Notes under the pieces: model-generated
Told to the model about the DNA's origin: nothing
Databases searched by the model: none
What the model saw: only the letters and a program-made list of their open reading frames with translations
Assembly (NCBI GenBank): GCA_024711125.1
Contig: JANJTM010000016.1
Span: 1 to 63,975 of the forward strand
DNA: 63,975 nt
From: Rhodothermales bacterium
GTDB taxonomy: Bacteria > Bacteroidota > Rhodothermia > Rhodothermales > UBA10348
Direction of reading: 5' to 3'
Shown: positions 51,229 to 59,779 of the stretch, one piece after another
Layout: every line of letters starts with the position of its first letter
Position numbering within the stretch: the first letter of the stretch is position 1
Position numbers and translations under genes: made by a program

Positions 51229-52620
51229 TCAGCGCAGGAGTTCGACCCGCCCGTCCCGGTATCGCTGGTAGAACAGGGCCTCGTTGACCTGCCCCCCGCG
51301 GAAGTCGATGCGCATGCCGGTGCCGTCGAAGAGCGGAGCGCGACGAAGGGCGTCGGCGATATCGGTGGCCGATCGTTCCCCCTGCATGGCGTGGAGCACG
51401 AACCGCGTGACGTCGTAGCCGACGTGGGCCAGCCGGCCGGCGTCCACACCGAAACGACGGCGGTGCTCGCGCAGGAACTCGCGGGTGAACCGCTCTTCCG
51501 GGTCTACCCGGAAATCGTTGAGATAGGTGACCGCGAAGGGATCGGCCGCCGCGCCGAGCCGAAGTTGGTGCCACTCGGCGTTGCCGAGGATACGGACGTC
51601 GGCTCCGGCTTCGGTCAGCGATTGGATCAGGGCATTCGCCTCCCGCTCGGCCTGCCTTCCGGCGAGCGGAACGAAGAGTCCGCGGGCACGGCGAAGGCCG
51701 TCTGCAGGCAGGGTTTCCGCGATATGCGACCACTCGGTGCCCGAATCCAGGGCTCGGAAGAACACGACTTCGGCGCCCAGCTTTCCGACCTCGTCGCGAA
51801 ACGCCTCGGCCATGGCGGTCGAGAAACCCTGCGAGTCGAAGGCCGCCAACACGCCGAAACGCCGCAGGAGCAGTCCGTTCACGCCGAAGCGGGCCAACGC
51901 CCTTCCGCGCGTGGCGATCGTGGGATTGGCCTGGAATACGAACCGCCGGTTTTCGGATACCCGGTCGTCGGTGGCCAGGGGCGCGACGAAAACGACCCGC
52001 CGCGTTTCGGCCTCGGCCGCCGCCATCCGGGCCTGGTCCGAAAACAGCGCTCCGAGGATCATCGTCACGCCCTCGTCAGCCAGGGACGCCACGGCGGTAG
52101 CCGCCCCGGAGGCTTGCGCCCCTATGTCCCGAAAGACGAGCCGAACGCGCTCGTGGCCGGCAGCCGTTCCGTTGTGTTCGTCGACGGCCTGGCGGATGCC
52201 GTTGAACAGCGCCTGCGATTGGGCCGACTCCTCGCCCTGCAGCGAGAGAATCACGCCGACCGGGCGCGCGCGCTGCGCCAGTACGGCAACCGCGGCGCGC
52301 GTGAGCGAGAGGGTGTGTTCGGCGTCCTGGACGTAGCGTGAGCCCGGGTACTGCGCCAGGAAGGCGCGCAGGGCCATCTCGGCCTCTTCGAAACGGTGCG
52401 CGCGGTAGAGCGACTTGGCGGCCATGAAGTGGCCGGCGGAAATCCAATCCCTGTCCTCGGAAGAGGCCACGGCCATGAAGCGGAGCAGCGCCCGGTCGAA
52501 GTCACCGAGCTCGAACGCGGCCAGCCCCTCCCGGAAATCGTCCGGCATGGCCTCCTGGGCCCCGGCGGGCGCCGCGGCAGGGACGAGCAGGCCAAGCGCG
52601 AGGACCAGGATGCGGATCAT
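51229..52620 (-). CDS. LpoA-like protein: TPR plus periplasmic-binding domain
   Basis: 463-residue exported protein. Signal [21 protein letters not shown], then TPR-like repeats ([40 protein letters not shown]; residues ~25-105), then a type-I periplasmic-binding fold ([52 protein letters not shown]). A TPR region fused to this fold is the layout of LpoA, the activator of penicillin-binding protein 1A in Proteobacteria, and of amino-acid-binding proteins. No ABC transporter subunits are adjacent, favouring a structural role. ATG 52620 overlaps the guaA stop by four bases. Confidence 0.72.
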
Positions 52621-54185
52621 TCCCATTCGATGGTCGCGGGAGGCTTCGAGCTGATATCGTAGACGCACCGGTTGATTCCGCGGATCTCGTTGACGATCCG
52701 GCTCGACACGTGCGCGAGAAAATCGTACGGCAACGGAGCCCAGTCGGCGGTCATTCCGTCCACGCTGGTCACGGCCCGGAGGGCGCACACGTTCTCGTAC
52801 GTGCGCTCGTCTCCCATCACGCCGACCGTGCGGACCGGCAGCAGCACGGCGAACGCCTGCCAGACCCGATCGTACAGCCCCCAGCTGCGCAGTTCGCCGA
52901 TGAAGATGTCATCGGCGTCGCGAAGCAGGCCGAGATCGGACCGCGTCACGGCGCCGGGGATGCGGATGGCGAGGCCGGGGCCGGGGAACGGGTGCCGTCC
53001 GATGATGGACTCCGGTACGCCGAGAAGACGGCCGATGGCGCGTACCTCGTCCTTGAACAACTCGCGGAACGGCTCCAGGATCTCGAAATCGAGGTCATCG
53101 GGAAGCCCACCCACGTTGTGGTGCGTCTTTATCGTCGCCGAGGGGCCCTTGAAGGAGACGCTTTCGATCACGTCGGGGTACAGCGTGCCCTGCGCAAGGA
53201 AACGCGGCTTGCGGTCGAGGTGACTCACCACGGTGCGCGTCGCCGAATCGAAAACCTCGACGAACGTATTGCCGATGATCCTGCGCTTGCGCTCCGGATC
53301 GGTGACGCCGTCCAGCCGTCCAAGGAACAGGTCCGACGCGTCCACGGCCTCCAGCCGGATATGGTAATGGTCACGAAACGTGGCCTGCACCTGCTCCCAC
53401 TCGCCCTTGCGGAGAAGCCCGTTGTTGACGAAGATGCAGGTCAGCCGGTCGCCGATGGCCTTGTGCAGGAGTACGGCCGCCACGGAGGAATCGACGCCTC
53501 CCGAGAGTCCAAGGATGACGTGCTCCTCGCCGACGAGTTCACGGACCTCGCGGGTCTTCTCGTCGATGAAGGACGCGGGCGACCAATCGCCCGCACACCC
53601 GCAGACCTCGAACGCGAAATTGCGGATGAGCGCGGCTCCATGCTCGGTGTGTACCACTTCCGGGTGGAATTGCACACCGAAATGCGGTCCCCGTTCGGAC
53701 CGGACGGCCGCGATCGGGGCGTTTTTCGTGTGTGCGATCACCCGGTAGCCGGGCGGGAGGGACGTGAGATGGTCCCCGTGGCTCATCCATACGGTGGAGC
53801 CCGACGGGATTCCGCGCAGGAGATCGGCGTCGTCGTCCACTTCAAGGTGGGCCCGGCCGAATTCCCGGTGTGCCGCGCGGGCGACCGTTCCCCCGGTCCG
53901 GTGGGCGATGGCCTGCAGGCCGTAACAGATACCCAGGACGGGCATCGGGGACCCGTCGGAGCGGACCATGCCGAGGATCGCGTCGTCGACCTGCGGCGCC
54001 CCGGGATCGTACACGCTGGAGGGGCCACCCGACAGGATTACGCCACGGGGCTCGAGGCGAGCCACGTCCTCGGCGGCGATCGTGCAGGGGTGGATCTCGG
54101 AATAGACGCCGGCCTCGCGAACCCTCCGAGCGATCAACTGGGTGTATTGGGAGCCGAAGTCGAGGATGACGATCCGTTCATGCAT
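52617..54185 (-). CDS. guaA: GMP synthase (glutamine-hydrolysing)
   Basis: 522-residue two-domain enzyme converting XMP to GMP. Glutaminase domain: [19 protein letters not shown] at the start, catalytic Cys in [11 protein letters not shown] (about residue 84), His-Glu in [14 protein letters not shown]. Synthetase domain: P-loop [15 protein letters not shown] and the C-terminal dimerisation domain ending [11 protein letters not shown]. Six bases after gcvH. Confidence 0.97.
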
Positions 54186-54191
54186 GCCGGG

Positions 54192-54578
54192 TCACGCCGA
54201 AATCATCGAGGCGTAGTCGTCGGCCGACAGCAGATCCGAGGCTTCCCCCGGATCGGACAGCTCGATCCGGATCATCCAGCCCTCACCGTACGGGTCCGAA
54301 TTCACCAGCTCGGGATTGCCGTCGAGGGCCGGGTTGATCTCGGCGACCGTTCCGGATACCGGCATGAACAGTTCCGAGACGGTCTTCACCGCCTCGACCG
54401 AGCCGAAAACCTCGTCCTTCGCCACCTGGGAGCCGACCGAGTCGATCTCGACGAAGACGATGTCGCCGAGCTCCTGCTGGGCGAATTCGGTGATGCCGAC
54501 CGTGCCGGTCTTGCCGTCGGCCGAAAGGCGCACCCATTCGTGCTCCTTGGTGTACTTGAGGTCCTTGGGGAACTGCAT
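54192..54578 (-). CDS. gcvH: Glycine cleavage system H protein
   Basis: 128-residue lipoyl carrier. YTKEHEWVRL at the start, GITEFAQQELGDIVFVE, and the lipoylated Lys in FGSVEAVKTVSELFMP (about residue 64). It shuttles the aminomethyl group from GcvP (41283). It leads into guaA and probably has its own promoter. Confidence 0.96.
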   Translation of the reverse strand: MQFPKDLKYTKEHEWVRLSADGKTGTVGITEFAQQELGDIVFVEIDSVGSQVAKDEVFGSVEAVKTVSELFMPVSGTVAEINPALDGNPELVNSDPYGEGWMIRIELSDPGEASDLLSADDYASMISA

Positions 54579-54612
54579 GGTGAGCCGCCGTGGGCTAAGG
54601 GAAGGGAAAGCC

Positions 54613-54620
54613 CGAAAATA
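54613..54620 (-). promoter_or_regulatory. Putative -7 element of gcvH (TATTTTCG)
   Basis: On the minus strand TATTTTCG lies 35 bases before the gcvH ATG, identical to boxes before rnc and the DUF4290-like gene. No convincing -33 TTTG. Confidence 0.4.
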
Positions 54621-54709
54621 CGCACGGACCGTCGCGATTCCCGGGAATTCCCGTTCCGGGGAAGGGTCATCCGAAGAAGATCGCGTGGCGGTCGATCCGG
54701 CCGGTGGCG

Positions 54710-56059
54710 TCAGGCCTGCGGGGGAACGAGTTCGAAGGACTCGAGAAACCGCGTATCGAACCGGCCGGCCACGAACTCCGGGTGCCGGAGAAGCTGCTTG
54801 TGGAACGGGACGGTGGTCTGGATGCCCTCGATCACGAATTCGTCGAGGGCGCGCAGCATCTTCTCGATGGCGAGATTCCGCGTCCGGGCGCGCACGATGA
54901 GCTTGGCGATCATCGAATCGTAGTACGGCGGAATCTGGTAGCCCGTGTAGACGTGCGTGTCGACCCGGACGCCGTGACCGCCAGGCGGGTGGAACGTGTG
55001 GACCCGGCCCGGGCTGGGGCTGAAATTGCGGAAGGGGTCCTCGGCGTTGATGCGCGCTTCGATTGCGTGTCCCACCGGGGCCTGGTGGTCGTCCTCGATC
55101 GACTCGCCGAGCGCGACCCGGATCTGCTGCGCGATGAGATCGGTGTCGGTCACTTCCTCGGTGACCGGGTGCTCGACCTGGATGCGCGTGTTCATCTCCA
55201 TGAAGTAGAAGTCGCCGTTCGCGTCGAGAAGGAACTCGACCGTTCCTGCGCCCTCGTACTTGACCGCGGCGGCACCCCTGACCGCCGCGTCGCCCATCCG
55301 GGCGCGCAGCGAGGCGTCCACCACCGGCGACGGCGACTCTTCGAGCAGCTTCTGGTGGCGCCGCTGGATCGAGCATTCGCGCTCCCCGTAGTGGATGACA
55401 TGCCCGCGACCGTCGCCCAGGACCTGGATCTCGATGTGCCGGGGGCTGGTGACGAACTTCTCCACGTAGACCGAGCCGTTTCCGAACGCCGCTTCGGCTT
55501 CGTTCGACGCGGTCGCGAACGCGTTGGCGAAGTCCGATTCGTTCATGACGACCCGCATGCCGCGTCCGCCGCCGCCTGCGCTGGCCTTGATGATGACCGG
55601 GTACCCGAATTTCCGGGCGATCCGTTGGCCGTCCTCCACGGTCTCCACTACGCCGTCGGAGCCCGGGACGACCGGCACACCGGCCGCCCGCATCGTGTCC
55701 TTCGCGAGGCTCTTGTCGCCCATGAGACGAATGGTCTCGGGCGACGGGCCGATGAACTTGATGTGGTGGTCCTCACAGATGGCGCTGAAATCCGCGTTCT
55801 CTGCGAGAAAGCCGTACCCCGGATGGATCGCGTCGGCGCCGGTCACCTCGGCGGCGGCCAGGATGCGATCGAAACGCAGGTAACTCTCGCGGCTGGGCGG
55901 AGGGCCGATGCAGACCGCCTCGTCGGCGAACCGCACGTGCAGGCTGTCCCTGTCGGCCGTGGAAAACACGGCGACCGTGCGCAGGCCCATCTCGTGACAG
56001 GTGCGGATGATGCGCAGGGCGATCTCGCCCCGGTTGGCGATGAGGACCTTCCGGATCAC
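54710..56059 (-). CDS. accC: Acetyl-CoA carboxylase, biotin carboxylase subunit
   Basis: 449-residue ATP-grasp enzyme that carboxylates biotin on AccB, first step of fatty acid synthesis. [18 protein letters not shown] at the start, [17 protein letters not shown]-binding [30 protein letters not shown] with the catalytic residues, and the C-terminal domain ending near [13 protein letters not shown]. 34 bases after accB. Confidence 0.97.
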
Positions 56060-56093
56060 GGTTCGGCTGGATTGGCCCGGTCGGGAGCGCCCG

Positions 56094-56630
56094 TCAGGCG
56101 GGCTCGATGACGAACAGGGGCTGGTCGAACTCGACCGGCTGTGCGTTGTCCACGAGAATCTCCCGCACGATGCCCGACATCTCGCATTCGACCTCGTTCA
56201 TCAGCTTCATCGCTTCGATGATGCAGAGGACGTCGCCGGGCTTGACGCGGTCGCCGACCGACACGTAGGCGTCGGCATCCGGCGAGGGCGAACGGTAGAA
56301 CGTGCCCACGATCGGTGCGCGCACTTCCTTGCCCGGGGTCACGCGGACGGCGGCGGATTCGGCGGGCGCGGGCGACTGGGCGGCCGGGGCGGCCGGGATG
56401 GAGGCGGACTGGACCGGGGCGTGGCCCGGACCGGCCTGGGGAGCCGGCCAGGCCCCCGGATACGCCATCGGAGGGAACGCGAACGGGAAGGCCTGGGCCG
56501 GCGGCTGGACCGTCACCGACGGGGCGTTCTTGCGCACGACGACCTTCAGGTCGCCGTCATGGATCTCCACTTCCGATACGTCGCTCTGCGCGACGACCTG
56601 AAGGAGTTCCCTGATGCGGTCTAGATCCAT
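56094..56630 (-). CDS. accB: Acetyl-CoA carboxylase biotin carboxyl carrier protein
   Basis: 178 residues. N-terminal helix and strand typical of BCCP ([20 protein letters not shown]), an Ala/Pro-rich flexible linker (about residues 45-95), and the C-terminal biotinyl domain with [15 protein letters not shown] and the biotinylated Lys in [13 protein letters not shown] (about residue 138). Works with AccC; efp-accB-accC order is the classical one. Confidence 0.96.
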
Positions 56631-56669
56631 GCGATCGCTGGATTGGACGGGCGGGGACGTCCCCGGAGG

Positions 56670-57242
56670 TCAGGACGCCGTGGAGACGCGCGTAATGTAG
56701 TCACCGCGTTCCGTATTGACGCGGATCACGTCGCCTTCGTTGATGAAGAGCGGCACGTACACGATGGCCCCGCTCTCGAGCGTGGCCGGCTTGGTGGCGC
56801 CGGTCGCGGTGTCTCCCTTGAGCCCGGGGTCGGTCTGCACCACCTTGAGTTCCACCGAATTCGGGATTTCGGTGGTGAGCGGCTGCTCGGTCTCCCCGTG
56901 GAACATGATGTCCACGGTGCCCCCTTCCTTGATGAAGAGGCGACCTGCGACGAAATCCTTCGGCAGCGTGACCTGCTCGTAGGTTTCGTTGTTCATGAAA
57001 TGCAGCCCCAGGTCGTCCTCGTAGAGGAACTGGTGGGGGCGGCGCTCCACGCGCGCCGTGTCGACGCGTTCGCCGGCGCGGAACGTATTGTCGACGACCT
57101 TGCCGGTCCGGACGTTCTTCAATTTCGAGCGCACGAACGCCCCGCCCTTGCCGGGCTTTACGTGCATGAACTCGACGATGGTCCAGAGGTCGTTGTTCCA
57201 GACGAGCGTGAGCCCGTTCCTGAAGTCGCTGGTATCGGCCAT
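56670..57242 (-). CDS. efp: Translation elongation factor P
   Basis: 190-residue KOW/OB-fold protein that rescues ribosomes stalled at polyproline. The tip of domain I is HVKPGKGGAFVRSKLKN, with Lys at the position modified in other species. Domain end DTATGATKPATLESGAIVYVP matches the family. It is followed by accB 39 bases later. Confidence 0.96.
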   Translation of the reverse strand: MADTSDFRNGLTLVWNNDLWTIVEFMHVKPGKGGAFVRSKLKNVRTGKVVDNTFRAGERVDTARVERRPHQFLYEDDLGLHFMNNETYEQVTLPKDFVAGRLFIKEGGTVDIMFHGETEQPLTTEIPNSVELKVVQTDPGLKGDTATGATKPATLESGAIVYVPLFINEGDVIRVNTERGDYITRVSTAS

Positions 57243-57328: not shown

Positions 57329-59002
57329 TCAGCGACTGAATTCTGCCACGATCTTCTCAATCTCGGCATCCGACAGCGCGGCGCGCGGGGGCGGATCCGG
57401 GGATGCCGCGGCGGGTGTTCCGGACGGGGACGTGCGCTGCGCGACGGGAAGGAGCGTCTCCGGAGCCGGAATCGCCTGCTGCGTTGCGCCGTCCGGGAGG
57501 CTCGCGGGCGCCGCGACGGTCGGGGGCGATCCGGCCCTCGCGCGCAGACGTTCGTCGATGCGCGCCATCCAGTCGGTGCCCGACGCCGGGGCAGACGCGC
57601 GGCGACGGCCGGAGGGCGCCGCCGGGGTCGGCGCGGGAAGCGCGCGGTCGGCCCGGTGCACGGGATCCGTCTCGAAGGCCACCCGCTTGATGTTCAGCAG
57701 GTGCAGCGGCGAGATGTTATCGCTGGTGATCGATCCCCCCAGCGTACCGGGACCCAGCGTAAGCGCGGGGAAGAGCCGGTTCGTGTACCCGACCGATCCG
57801 AGTGCCGTAACCGAGTTCACGACGATGCGCATCGCCGGTTTCTGCAGGGCGAAGGCCTCGATGACGCGCTCGTTCGTGCCGTGGATGCCGAGGGTATGCC
57901 CCATGCCGCCGTACGCGAGGATCTCCATGCACCGTTCACATCCCGCCTGCCATCCGTCGGCGGTGTAAAACGTCAGGATGGGAGAGAGCGTCTCGCGCGA
58001 AAGCGGCTCGGCTGGGCCGACGGCATCGGCTTCCGACACGAGGACACGCGTATCGCGCGGAACGGAGAACCCGGCGAGGGCGGCGATATCGTGGGGCGGC
58101 TTGCCGACCTGGGCCGGGTTGAGCCGTCCTTCGCGGACGACGACCGCCCGGAGAAGATCACGTTCGCCCGGCGTGACGAAATGGGCCCCGTTCGTCTCCA
58201 GCGCCTTGAGCAGCCGGGCCCGGATCGGCAGGTCGGCCACGACGCTCCGCTCGGTGGAACACAGTACGCCCCAGTCGAAGGAGGCCCCGTACACGAGATC
58301 CCGGGCCGCCTTGTCGACGTCGGCGCTGCGATCCACCCACACCGGCACGTTTCCCGAACCGACGCCGTAGGCGGGTTTGCCCTTGCTGTAGGCGGCGCGG
58401 ACCATGGCCGAGCCGCCCGTAGCCAGGATCACGTCCACCGACGGATGGGAGAGCAGCGCTTCCGTACCGGATTCGCTGACCTCCGTCATGCACGCGAACA
58501 GACCCTTCGGTGCCCCGGCGGCGACCGCGGCCTCGGCGACGACCCGGAGGGCCTCGGCCGTACAGCCGGAGGCGCGCGGATGCGGACTCATGACGATGGC
58601 GCACCGGGCCTTGGCCGCGATGATGGCCTTGTACAGGGCCGTGGACGTGGGATTCGTGGACGGAATCAGCGCCGCGACCACTCCCATCGGCGAGGCGACC
58701 TCCCAGACGGTCCCGTCGTGAGGCCGCGCGACCACGCCCACGGTCGGCATGCCGCGCACGGCCTCGGCCAGCCTGCGGGTCGCGAAAAGATTCTTCAGTT
58801 TCTTGCTGTCGACCCGCCCGAAGCCGGTTTCGTCGCAGGCAAGCCGCGCGAGCCGTTCCGCGGCCTGGGCACCGGCCGCGGCCATGGCCTCCACGATGCG
58901 GTCCACGGCGGCCTGATCGAGGCTCTTGGCCTCGTGAAGGGCATCGCCGGCCGCCGCCACGAGGGACCGGGCTTGCTGGATCGAGCGGAGGTCGGCGTCC
59001 AT
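57329..59002 (-). CDS. Acylating aldehyde dehydrogenase (EutE/PduP-like) with C-terminal tail
   Basis: 557-residue CoA-acylating aldehyde dehydrogenase. Core residues ~1-450: PMGVVAALIPSTNPTSTAL, GGSAMVRAAYSKGKPAYGVG, and the catalytic Cys in FDWGVLCSTERSVV (about residue 248), replacing the usual FDNGxxCxSE. The core ends GPGTLGGSITSDNISPLHLL. Then comes an Ala/Pro-rich linker of about 90 residues and a final short helix LSDAEIEKIVAEFSR. Linker plus amphipathic terminal helix is the layout of encapsulation peptides on microcompartment enzymes, but no shell gene is in the window. It lies 86 bases upstream of efp on the same strand. ATG 59002 chosen; the open frame before it is not protein-like. 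Confidence 0.82.
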   Translation of the reverse strand: MDADLRSIQQARSLVAAAGDALHEAKSLDQAAVDRIVEAMAAAGAQAAERLARLACDETGFGRVDSKKLKNLFATRRLAEAVRGMPTVGVVARPHDGTVWEVASPMGVVAALIPSTNPTSTALYKAIIAAKARCAIVMSPHPRASGCTAEALRVVAEAAVAAGAPKGLFACMTEVSESGTEALLSHPSVDVILATGGSAMVRAAYSKGKPAYGVGSGNVPVWVDRSADVDKAARDLVYGASFDWGVLCSTERSVVADLPIRARLLKALETNGAHFVTPGERDLLRAVVVREGRLNPAQVGKPPHDIAALAGFSVPRDTRVLVSEADAVGPAEPLSRETLSPILTFYTADGWQAGCERCMEILAYGGMGHTLGIHGTNERVIEAFALQKPAMRIVVNSVTALGSVGYTNRLFPALTLGPGTLGGSITSDNISPLHLLNIKRVAFETDPVHRADRALPAPTPAAPSGRRRASAPASGTDWMARIDERLRARAGSPPTVAAPASLPDGATQQAIPAPETLLPVAQRTSPSGTPAAASPDPPPRAALSDAEIEKIVAEFSR

Positions 59003-59182
59003 GGTCCGTTCAGGGAATTGCGGGAATAAACGGGTCCCGCCGCGCACGGGCAAGCGAACGCCGTGGCACAAACCCGTATCGAAATGAGACGACCCCGACC
59101 GAAAAACCGGAATCTGCCCGTACTCCCTGTGGAAGGATACGCGCTAAACCCTCGGCGCAGAACTTTTGCCGAACGAGATTCC

Positions 59183-59779
59183 ATGAGAGGGAATCCCAAT
59201 ATCATCGACGAACAGACCTTGGCCGGCTACCTGGCCGGCGACCTGCCCCCGGCGCGACGCCGCCAGGTCACCCGGTACCTCGCGGAGAACGAGGAAGCCC
59301 GGGAGCTCGTGCTGGTAGCCCGCGAACTCCTGGATGACCAGGGATGGAGATCGCTGCCCGACGACGGCCTCTTCACCCTGCGCCGGCTGCGACTGGCGGT
59401 CTGGATCGCCGGAATCACGATGCTCGTGGCGGCGGTGGCGGTCACCCTGCTCCTCGCGGTCCGATTCCGGGAAGAAGCCCTCGCGGTCAGGACGCGCCCT
59501 GCGGGCGTGGAGGACGCATCCTGGTCTGCGGATCTCACCGTTCAATCGGGTCGCCTGCGATGGGACGCGATTCCGGGAGCGACCTACGCCGTGGTGTTCT
59601 GGGACGTGGAACGCGGCGTCGAATCGCTTCGGGTGCCCGTCGACGGACCTGCGGTCGACATCGGGGGACTCGTGGTCGCGGAATCGGGACGGCCCCACGC
59701 GGTGTGGATCGAGGCGATCGCACCCGGTGGGGCCGTGATCCGGAAGACGCCGCCCATCCGGCTGCGTCCCGCGCCGTGA
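59183..59779 (+). CDS. Anti-sigma-factor-like single-pass membrane protein
   Basis: 198 residues. A cytoplasmic N-terminal helical part (IIDEQTLAGYLAGDLPPARRRQVTRYLAENEEAREL, in two halves around DLPPARRR) resembles zinc-free anti-sigma N-domains. One TM helix (VWIAGITMLVAAVAVTLLLAV, about residues 72-92) leads to a periplasmic domain with fibronectin-like strands (SGRLRWDAIPGATYAVVFW). No ECF sigma gene is adjacent, so partnership is unknown. ATG 59183 has GAACGAGA upstream. Confidence 0.6.
   Translation: MRGNPNIIDEQTLAGYLAGDLPPARRRQVTRYLAENEEARELVLVARELLDDQGWRSLPDDGLFTLRRLRLAVWIAGITMLVAAVAVTLLLAVRFREEALAVRTRPAGVEDASWSADLTVQSGRLRWDAIPGATYAVVFWDVERGVESLRVPVDGPAVDIGGLVVAESGRPHAVWIEAIAPGGAVIRKTPPIRLRPAP

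Follow-up and report, generated by a model that had tools for sequence, protein, structure and literature searches.

A tailed aldehyde dehydrogenase of Rhodothermales as probable cargo of a dispersed, FRAG-like microcompartment with an inferred deoxyribose-5-phosphate pathway

Bacterial microcompartments of the FRAG types have scattered shell genes, a triplet of BMC-P genes and an aldehyde dehydrogenase (AldDh) that is mostly remote from them, and have been described in Ignavibacteriae and allied phyla (Sutter et al. 2021, PMC8217296, available in part). That catalogue, in the portions consulted, assigns FRAG1-7 no obvious signature enzyme and calls them enigmatic on account of this scatter and of the lack of an evident enzyme that makes the aldehyde. 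In a second type, SPU (sugar phosphate utilization), the aldehyde is acetaldehyde, which deoxyribose-phosphate aldolase (DeoC) produces from deoxyribose-5-phosphate and on which AldDh then acts, according to excerpts of PMC4207490 and PMC8217296. For some genomes of the HO type, an unlinked pfam01791 (DeoC-family) aldolase with an N-terminal extension resembling an encapsulation peptide (EP) is reported in the same sections of PMC8217296. The EPs of PduP-type cargo carry hydrophobic residues at positions i, i+3/4 and i+7, as described in excerpts of PMC12339742 and PMC11157265. With regard to other scattered loci, the available part of Axen et al. (PMC4207490) suggests that constitutively expressed compartment genes need no adjacency.

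We describe here an acylating acetaldehyde dehydrogenase (ALDH) from a Rhodothermales genome that most likely encodes a dispersed FRAG-like compartment, in which deoxyribose-5-phosphate would be converted through acetaldehyde to acetyl-CoA; encapsulation, flux and cofactor recycling are inferred. The gene lies in the window, by which we mean the whole stretch of DNA analysed (63,975 nucleotides, contig C61), with these features:

57329..59002, minus strand: ALDH gene, stop codon included, 557 amino acids (open reading frame; matches to PF00171, to TIGR02518 below its cut-off, and to 5j78 over residues 2-445)
57332..57667, minus strand: C-terminal tail, residues 446-557, with two motifs within variable Ala/Pro/Ser-rich linkers; pLDDT mostly <50 except in the terminal helix
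57530..57571, minus strand: internal tail motif WMARIDERLRARAG, residues 478-491, in 60/61 orthologues; modelled helix 478-489
57332..57376, minus strand: terminal helix LSDAEIEKIVAEFSR, residues 543-557, probable encapsulation peptide, with its hydrophobic spacing in 60/61 orthologues; modelled helix 545-556
52617..57242, minus strand: efp, accB, accC, gcvH and guaA, downstream of ALDH on the same strand; context only, outside the proposed system; names read from translations

The ALDH frame opens with the ATG at 59002. Its core (residues 2-445) is complete and aligns to the acetylating acetaldehyde dehydrogenase 5j78, its nearest solved relative, at 460 bits (E 1e-136), compared with 167 bits for 4c3s, which we take to be a PduP-type ALDH. 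TIGR02518 is the best NCBIfam model for the core, at 517 bits against a cut-off of 620. Because of the 5j78 alignment and the rank of TIGR02518, the core is assigned, by sequence comparison, to the acylating ALDHs and is closer to the AcdH type and the AdhE N-terminal domain than to PduP/EutE. The preliminary description of this DNA had called the core EutE/PduP-like; its acylating nature stands, whereas the proposed type does not agree with the two scores.

The run efp-accB-accC-gcvH-guaA is syntenic with ALDH in 7 of 10 compared genomes, and such housekeeping neighbours fit constitutive expression, for which there are no expression data. On the opposite side of ALDH, a divergent gene for a small protein resembling an anti-sigma factor (59063-59779, plus strand; no Pfam match) is kept beside it in several genomes. 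A gene for a KaiC-like ATPase (PF06745; 61903-63483, plus strand) likewise recurs next to it.

The extension beyond the core comprises 112 residues, not the roughly 90 first estimated, and Ala plus Pro account for 39% of it compared with 22% of the core, so that the original picture of a complete acylating enzyme prolonged by an Ala/Pro-rich stretch ending in a helix is otherwise borne out. Tails were counted in 61 of the 62 loci given, L013 being left out for want of a stop-terminated frame. Of the two motifs, the internal one (consensus W/F-x-x-x-I-E-x-R-L-R-x-R-A-G) and the terminal spacing phi-x-x-phi-phi-x-x-phi (consensus I-x-x-[IL]-[IV]-x-x-F) are each found in all orthologues with such a frame except one. 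The two motifs persist among orthologues of the order and of further families in the phylum even though the linkers vary in both length and sequence, and because of this we regard the conservation as more than chance. Both motifs are present in L109, an Ignavibacteriae record, and both are missing from all six comparison homologues (five of other lineages and one paralogue). A stricter PduP-like pattern, combining the hydrophobic face with an acidic residue, fits 37 of the 61 tails, compared with 1.5% of shuffles.

The two helices listed above are AlphaFold2 predictions, and the remainder of the tail is modelled with low confidence. The terminal helix had been termed amphipathic. Its hydrophobic moment does not stand out (258th among 545 windows; p 0.39 against shuffles) and fails to support that word, so the support comes instead from the conserved hydrophobic spacing of a modelled helix. 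If an EP is taken to be a short terminal helix with a hydrophobic face on a flexible linker, the ALDH tail qualifies through its spacing and its predicted helix among low-confidence linkers, the moment alone not being above chance. The arrangement of an acylating ALDH, a linker and a terminal helix as EP resembles that of PduP/EutE cargo (PMC12339742, in part), from which it differs in its AdhE-N/AcdH-type core, in a helix that is C-terminal and not N-terminal, and in the additional internal motif. A two-motif cargo tail is not recognised as such in those parts of the microcompartment literature that were consulted for comparison.

Searches of 12 genomes with the internal motif gave ALDH as the sole match above noise (12/12, with E no higher than 1.2e-8; E 0.011 for the runner-up). 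As bait for further cargo the motif therefore produced nothing in these genomes, and it had no match among PDB sequences at E up to 10. The terminal-helix profile ranked ALDH first in 11 of the 12, the helix of the ALDH in G005 reaching only E 2.1. A protein of about 365 residues recurred in the second tier of this search; its match lies inside the chain, and it was hence judged unrelated.

Codon-model gene calling chose shadow ORFs in this high-GC genome and was replaced by conservation between genomes. The following shell genes were identified:

C70:53790-54314, strand not given: pair of BMC-H genes (shell gene search of the same genome)
C78:56642-57153 (a pair) and C24:56335-56592 (a third), strands not given: three BMC-P genes (three PF03319 matches)

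The genome thus holds two BMC-H and three BMC-P genes on three contigs, and none was found on the ALDH contig, in agreement with the earlier observation that the window lacks shell genes. The preliminary description had proposed that the tail targets a cargo encoded away from its shell, and had named as refutation a genome without shell genes and a tail helix not conserved among orthologues. Neither applies, and the proposal is supported by the remote shell genes, by the conservation of the tail and by a near-perfect co-occurrence of ALDH and shell, physical encapsulation being inferred.

Shell genes are present in 46 of 80 order-level genomes (BMC-P in 46, BMC-H in 44). ALDH was found in 43 of these 46 and in none of the 34 shell-negative genomes (0/34). 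Shell genes occur without it in G021 (87% complete), G030 (77% complete) and G047, where a contig edge holds a match of 28 residues. Outside the order, within a set of 394 phylum genomes, 57 have a strong ALDH match, 65 have BMC-H and 56 have both. The lone outside genome with a strong ALDH and no BMC-H is G382 (81% complete); nine have BMC-H without this ALDH, and at least one of the nine (G201) possesses a clustered compartment of another kind. Six genomes of the phylum set with weak ALDH matches (335-377 bits: G087, G297, G406, G169, G098 and G182) were not counted as orthologues. The genome lists behind these counts, and behind those for DeoC given below, were compiled by hand from search outputs. 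On this evidence, all of it from sequence, the case for ALDH as a putative cargo enzyme is strong.

The first BMC-H protein carries AMVKAA and AATDAGAAAA in this genome and in all 32 copies read (32/32). These stretches form the groove between BMC-H tiles that is reported as the encapsulation-peptide site in PduA (PMC11157265, in part). PduL (PF06130), tried as a cargo marker, was dropped, as it is absent from all 80 order-level genomes. Recycling of CoA is consequently unexplained: either it is recycled otherwise, or carbon leaves as acetyl-CoA. Other neighbours of the shell genes considered as extra cargo, namely FbaB, YbbR-like, CdaA-like and Pcm, look like housekeeping proteins (names partly from translations).

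One neighbour, deoB, is linked. This phosphopentomutase gene (410 bits against a cut-off of 341) precedes the BMC-P pair on C78 and occurs in the same stretch as that pair in 9 of 10 other genomes, the linkage being lost in G036. Its position beside BMC-P pointed to deoxyribose-5-phosphate and hence to DeoC:

C71, strand not given: DeoC, deoxyribose-phosphate aldolase (TIGR00126, 266 bits against a cut-off of 117), unlinked to ALDH

Most genomes, with or without a shell, have a TIGR00126 DeoC, so its presence is uninformative and the N-terminus is what informs. In shell-positive genomes the DeoC frame is about 60-80 residues longer, and this extension is followed by a conserved GA-x-R stretch and then by the core. 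Extended proteins begin with MNEGDKEQIVRRLEARV in G036 and with MTETERQQLVDRLARQF in the genome studied here (C71); in shell-negative genomes of one family DeoC begins with MTPQELARLIDHT. Within the order, the DeoC start could be read in 42 of the 46 shell-positive genomes (G007, G012, G014 and G041 were unreadable) and in 28 of the 34 shell-negative ones. All 42 of the former have the extension, and 2 of the latter 28 were flagged. These calls were made with a loose GAxR expression; the two flags, G033 and G069, look unrelated by eye and were kept in the count. Outside the order, 53 of 54 readable ALDH-positive genomes have the extension (57 in all; G138, G332 and G340 were not read). It is missing from all 12 readable ALDH-negative genomes outside (0/12), six of them with BMC-H matches though without this ALDH.

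A start resembling M[NT]xxE[KR]xx[IL][IV]xRL was seen in 39 of the 42 genomes of the order, G066, G072 and G079 deviating. An earlier expression with a single spacing fitted 8 of 42 genomes in the order and 44 of 54 outside it, and was abandoned, the spacing differing between the two groups. In family f26 the DeoC starts resemble classical EPs, for example MNSSIIDKVVSQVF, and deoC lies 8-18 kb from the BMC-H pair in 18 of 24 genomes (a count read off listings). A profile of the ALDH helix finds the DeoC start of the same genome only at E 1.66, and because of this the two predicted peptides are not demonstrably one family. As a cargo of the SPU kind, DeoC has an EP-like extension and its gene is unlinked; encapsulation is not shown. 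The unlinked extended aldolase of HO genomes (PMC8217296, in part) is a clear precedent for such an arrangement. HO differs in having a main shell locus with BMC-T, whereas the order's genomes have only two PF00936 matches and no main locus.

From the distribution of its extension, DeoC appears to be the missing aldehyde producer, which suggests deoxyribose, the sugar of DNA, as the material that the compartment processes. The evidence for DeoC as partner is strong but correlative. ALDH might instead be microcompartment cargo acting on some other aldehyde, with DeoC a minor or independent passenger: G083 has a shell and a tailed ALDH, yet its DeoC lacks the extension, and the ALDH core falls under the curated cut-off of an acetaldehyde-specific model. 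We consider this unlikely, given that the extension follows the shell in 42/42 and 53/54 readable genomes, that the nearest solved relative of the core is an acetylating acetaldehyde dehydrogenase, and that deoB is linked to shell genes in 9/10 other genomes. G044 (L423, L223) also counts against the favoured scheme: it is without a shell and has only an AdhE-like ALDH, yet its DeoC retains a helix-like N-terminus, MTDAQIDQLISRF, possibly a relic of a lost system.

In a tree of DeoC cores (n=122), no fewer than 6 changes of the shell label are required (bootstrap 5-6; 25.6 on average after shuffling), with shell-negative DeoCs nested several times inside shell-positive groups. Twelve divergent DeoC rows were excluded. 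The number of changes is approximate, given the unknown position of the root and the uncertainty of some long branches. So many changes indicate that the tie between shell and extension is not a single event, and the most economical account is that an old system has repeatedly been lost, the shell and the DeoC extension going together. These losses also bear on whether the tail might bind something other than a shell, such as a partner enzyme or a self-association site, its correlation with the shell reflecting shared ancestry only. That reading draws on the lack of any match to the internal motif in solved structures, or in other genes above noise in the 12 genomes, and on evidence that is all correlative, ALDH and shell being unlinked. 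We think it very improbable, since the correlation outlasts several independent losses and leaves no ALDH in the 34 shell-negative genomes, the tail is missing in homologues of other lineages, and the PduP pattern with its acidic residue is so much rarer in shuffles than in the tails (1.5% versus 37/61).

We hold it highly probable that ALDH is cargo of a microcompartment encoded at five unlinked places (ALDH; the BMC-H pair on C70; the BMC-P pair and deoB on C78; the third BMC-P gene, overlapping an AAA+ ATPase gene, on C24; DeoC on C71), with deoxyribose-5-phosphate converted to acetaldehyde and then to acetyl-CoA. In the proposed scheme DeoB would supply deoxyribose-5-phosphate, from which DeoC would produce acetaldehyde; ALDH, held by its C-terminal tail, would convert acetaldehyde, NAD+ and CoA to acetyl-CoA, and the shell would retain the toxic and volatile acetaldehyde. 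The ALDH terminal helix would serve as EP, docking in the groove between BMC-H tiles, and the DeoC N-terminus may dock in the same groove; both dockings are proposed because the first BMC-H protein has the two groove stretches. The internal ALDH motif probably provides another contact, to shell or cargo, although this is a guess. The scheme rests on shell genes, a conserved tail, the DeoC extension, co-occurrence and dispersal, all read directly from the genomes; encapsulation, substrate, direction of flux, groove docking and the role of the internal motif are inferred, without experiment or a structure of tail and shell.

DeoC and acylating ALDH are reversible enzymes. An anabolic compartment in which ALDH makes acetaldehyde from acetyl-CoA and DeoC builds deoxyribose-5-phosphate would accord with that reversibility, with the place of ALDH at the head of a housekeeping gene run and with the lack of PduL to drain acetyl-CoA, but we think it very unlikely, since SPU compartments, which use this same pair, are interpreted as catabolic (PMC8217296 and PMC4207490, in part) and the deoB linkage suits salvage of deoxyribose-1-phosphate.

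The catabolic compartment that we favour shares with SPU the pair of DeoC and AldDh. SPU, in the consulted parts of its descriptions, groups its genes in a single locus that includes RpiB and often PduL. The system described here lacks PduL, and its genes are scattered. With ALDH, the BMC-H genes, the BMC-P pair, the third BMC-P gene and DeoC on five contigs, a single locus of shell and enzymes is not present. In G036, which is a single contig, ALDH lies at 1.39 Mb, the BMC-P pair at 3.55, DeoC at 4.02, the third BMC-P gene at 4.27 and the BMC-H genes at 4.33 Mb. Very probably, then, two enzymes, ALDH and DeoC, are packed in a shell from at least five scattered loci. The features recalling FRAG (PMC8217296, in part) are shell genes at several places, on three contigs here and around 3.55, 4.27 and 4.33 Mb in G036; three BMC-P genes, compared with the triplet by number alone; and a remote AldDh. 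The system departs from FRAG in the proposal of DeoC as signature enzyme, where the consulted sections of the catalogue give none, and in its host, Rhodothermales not being named for FRAG in those sections. We therefore use the label FRAG-like and not FRAG (the shell subtype, FRAG1-7, is unassigned) and regard the system as the working of SPU with the architecture of FRAG. No paper tying DeoC to FRAG, or to compartments of Rhodothermales or Ignavibacteria, was found in the open-access papers searched, subscription papers and preprints being outside the scope of the search.

These results support the preliminary description and extend it to a compartment with dispersed genes and an inferred deoxyribose-5-phosphate pathway; the internal motif at 57530-57571, the unlinked DeoC partner and the type of compartment had been missed. 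If DeoC is the aldehyde-making enzyme of FRAG, the function of these compartments becomes directly testable. If the reading is true, cargo can be found without reference to gene neighbourhood, by means of a terminal peptide whose gain and loss follow those of the shell, and a lineage-wide route for reuse of the sugar of DNA is added. More tentatively, and with somewhat more doubt than confidence, the FRAG-like compartments of Rhodothermota, Ignavibacteriota and Bacteroidota may represent an old, constitutive organelle for deoxyribose salvage, with DeoC as signature enzyme, no operon, several losses together with the DeoC extension, a two-part ALDH tail, and an AAA+ ATPase coupled to BMC-P for assembly or turnover of the shell.

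Several observations concern the shell genes and their surroundings. The second BMC-H protein (G000:C70:54087-54314; L006 10067-10537) and its orthologues have a C-terminal extension, kept across the phylum, that ends in a conserved stretch like Rho_N/SAP (Rho_N E 0.002, SAP 0.018-0.05, all below Pfam cut-offs); a shell protein that binds nucleic acid would, if true, be notable. A YbbR/CdaR-like gene (L006 10599-11594; L398 7780-8688; L405 10603-11535) comes after the two BMC-H genes both in the order and in family f26; its name comes from the translation, and the copy in the genome studied here has no Pfam or NCBIfam match. One genome that holds the dispersed system also has a second, clustered compartment locus (L399, G252:C1:116000-134000), where shell genes are grouped with a PduP-type ALDH and a class II-like aldolase. 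The gene for the AAA+ ATPase, a protein of 657 amino acids (G000:C24; L008 9366-11614), overlaps the third BMC-P gene by ATGA. The two also share a stretch in 9 of 10 other genomes, and the ATPase is a possible assembly factor.
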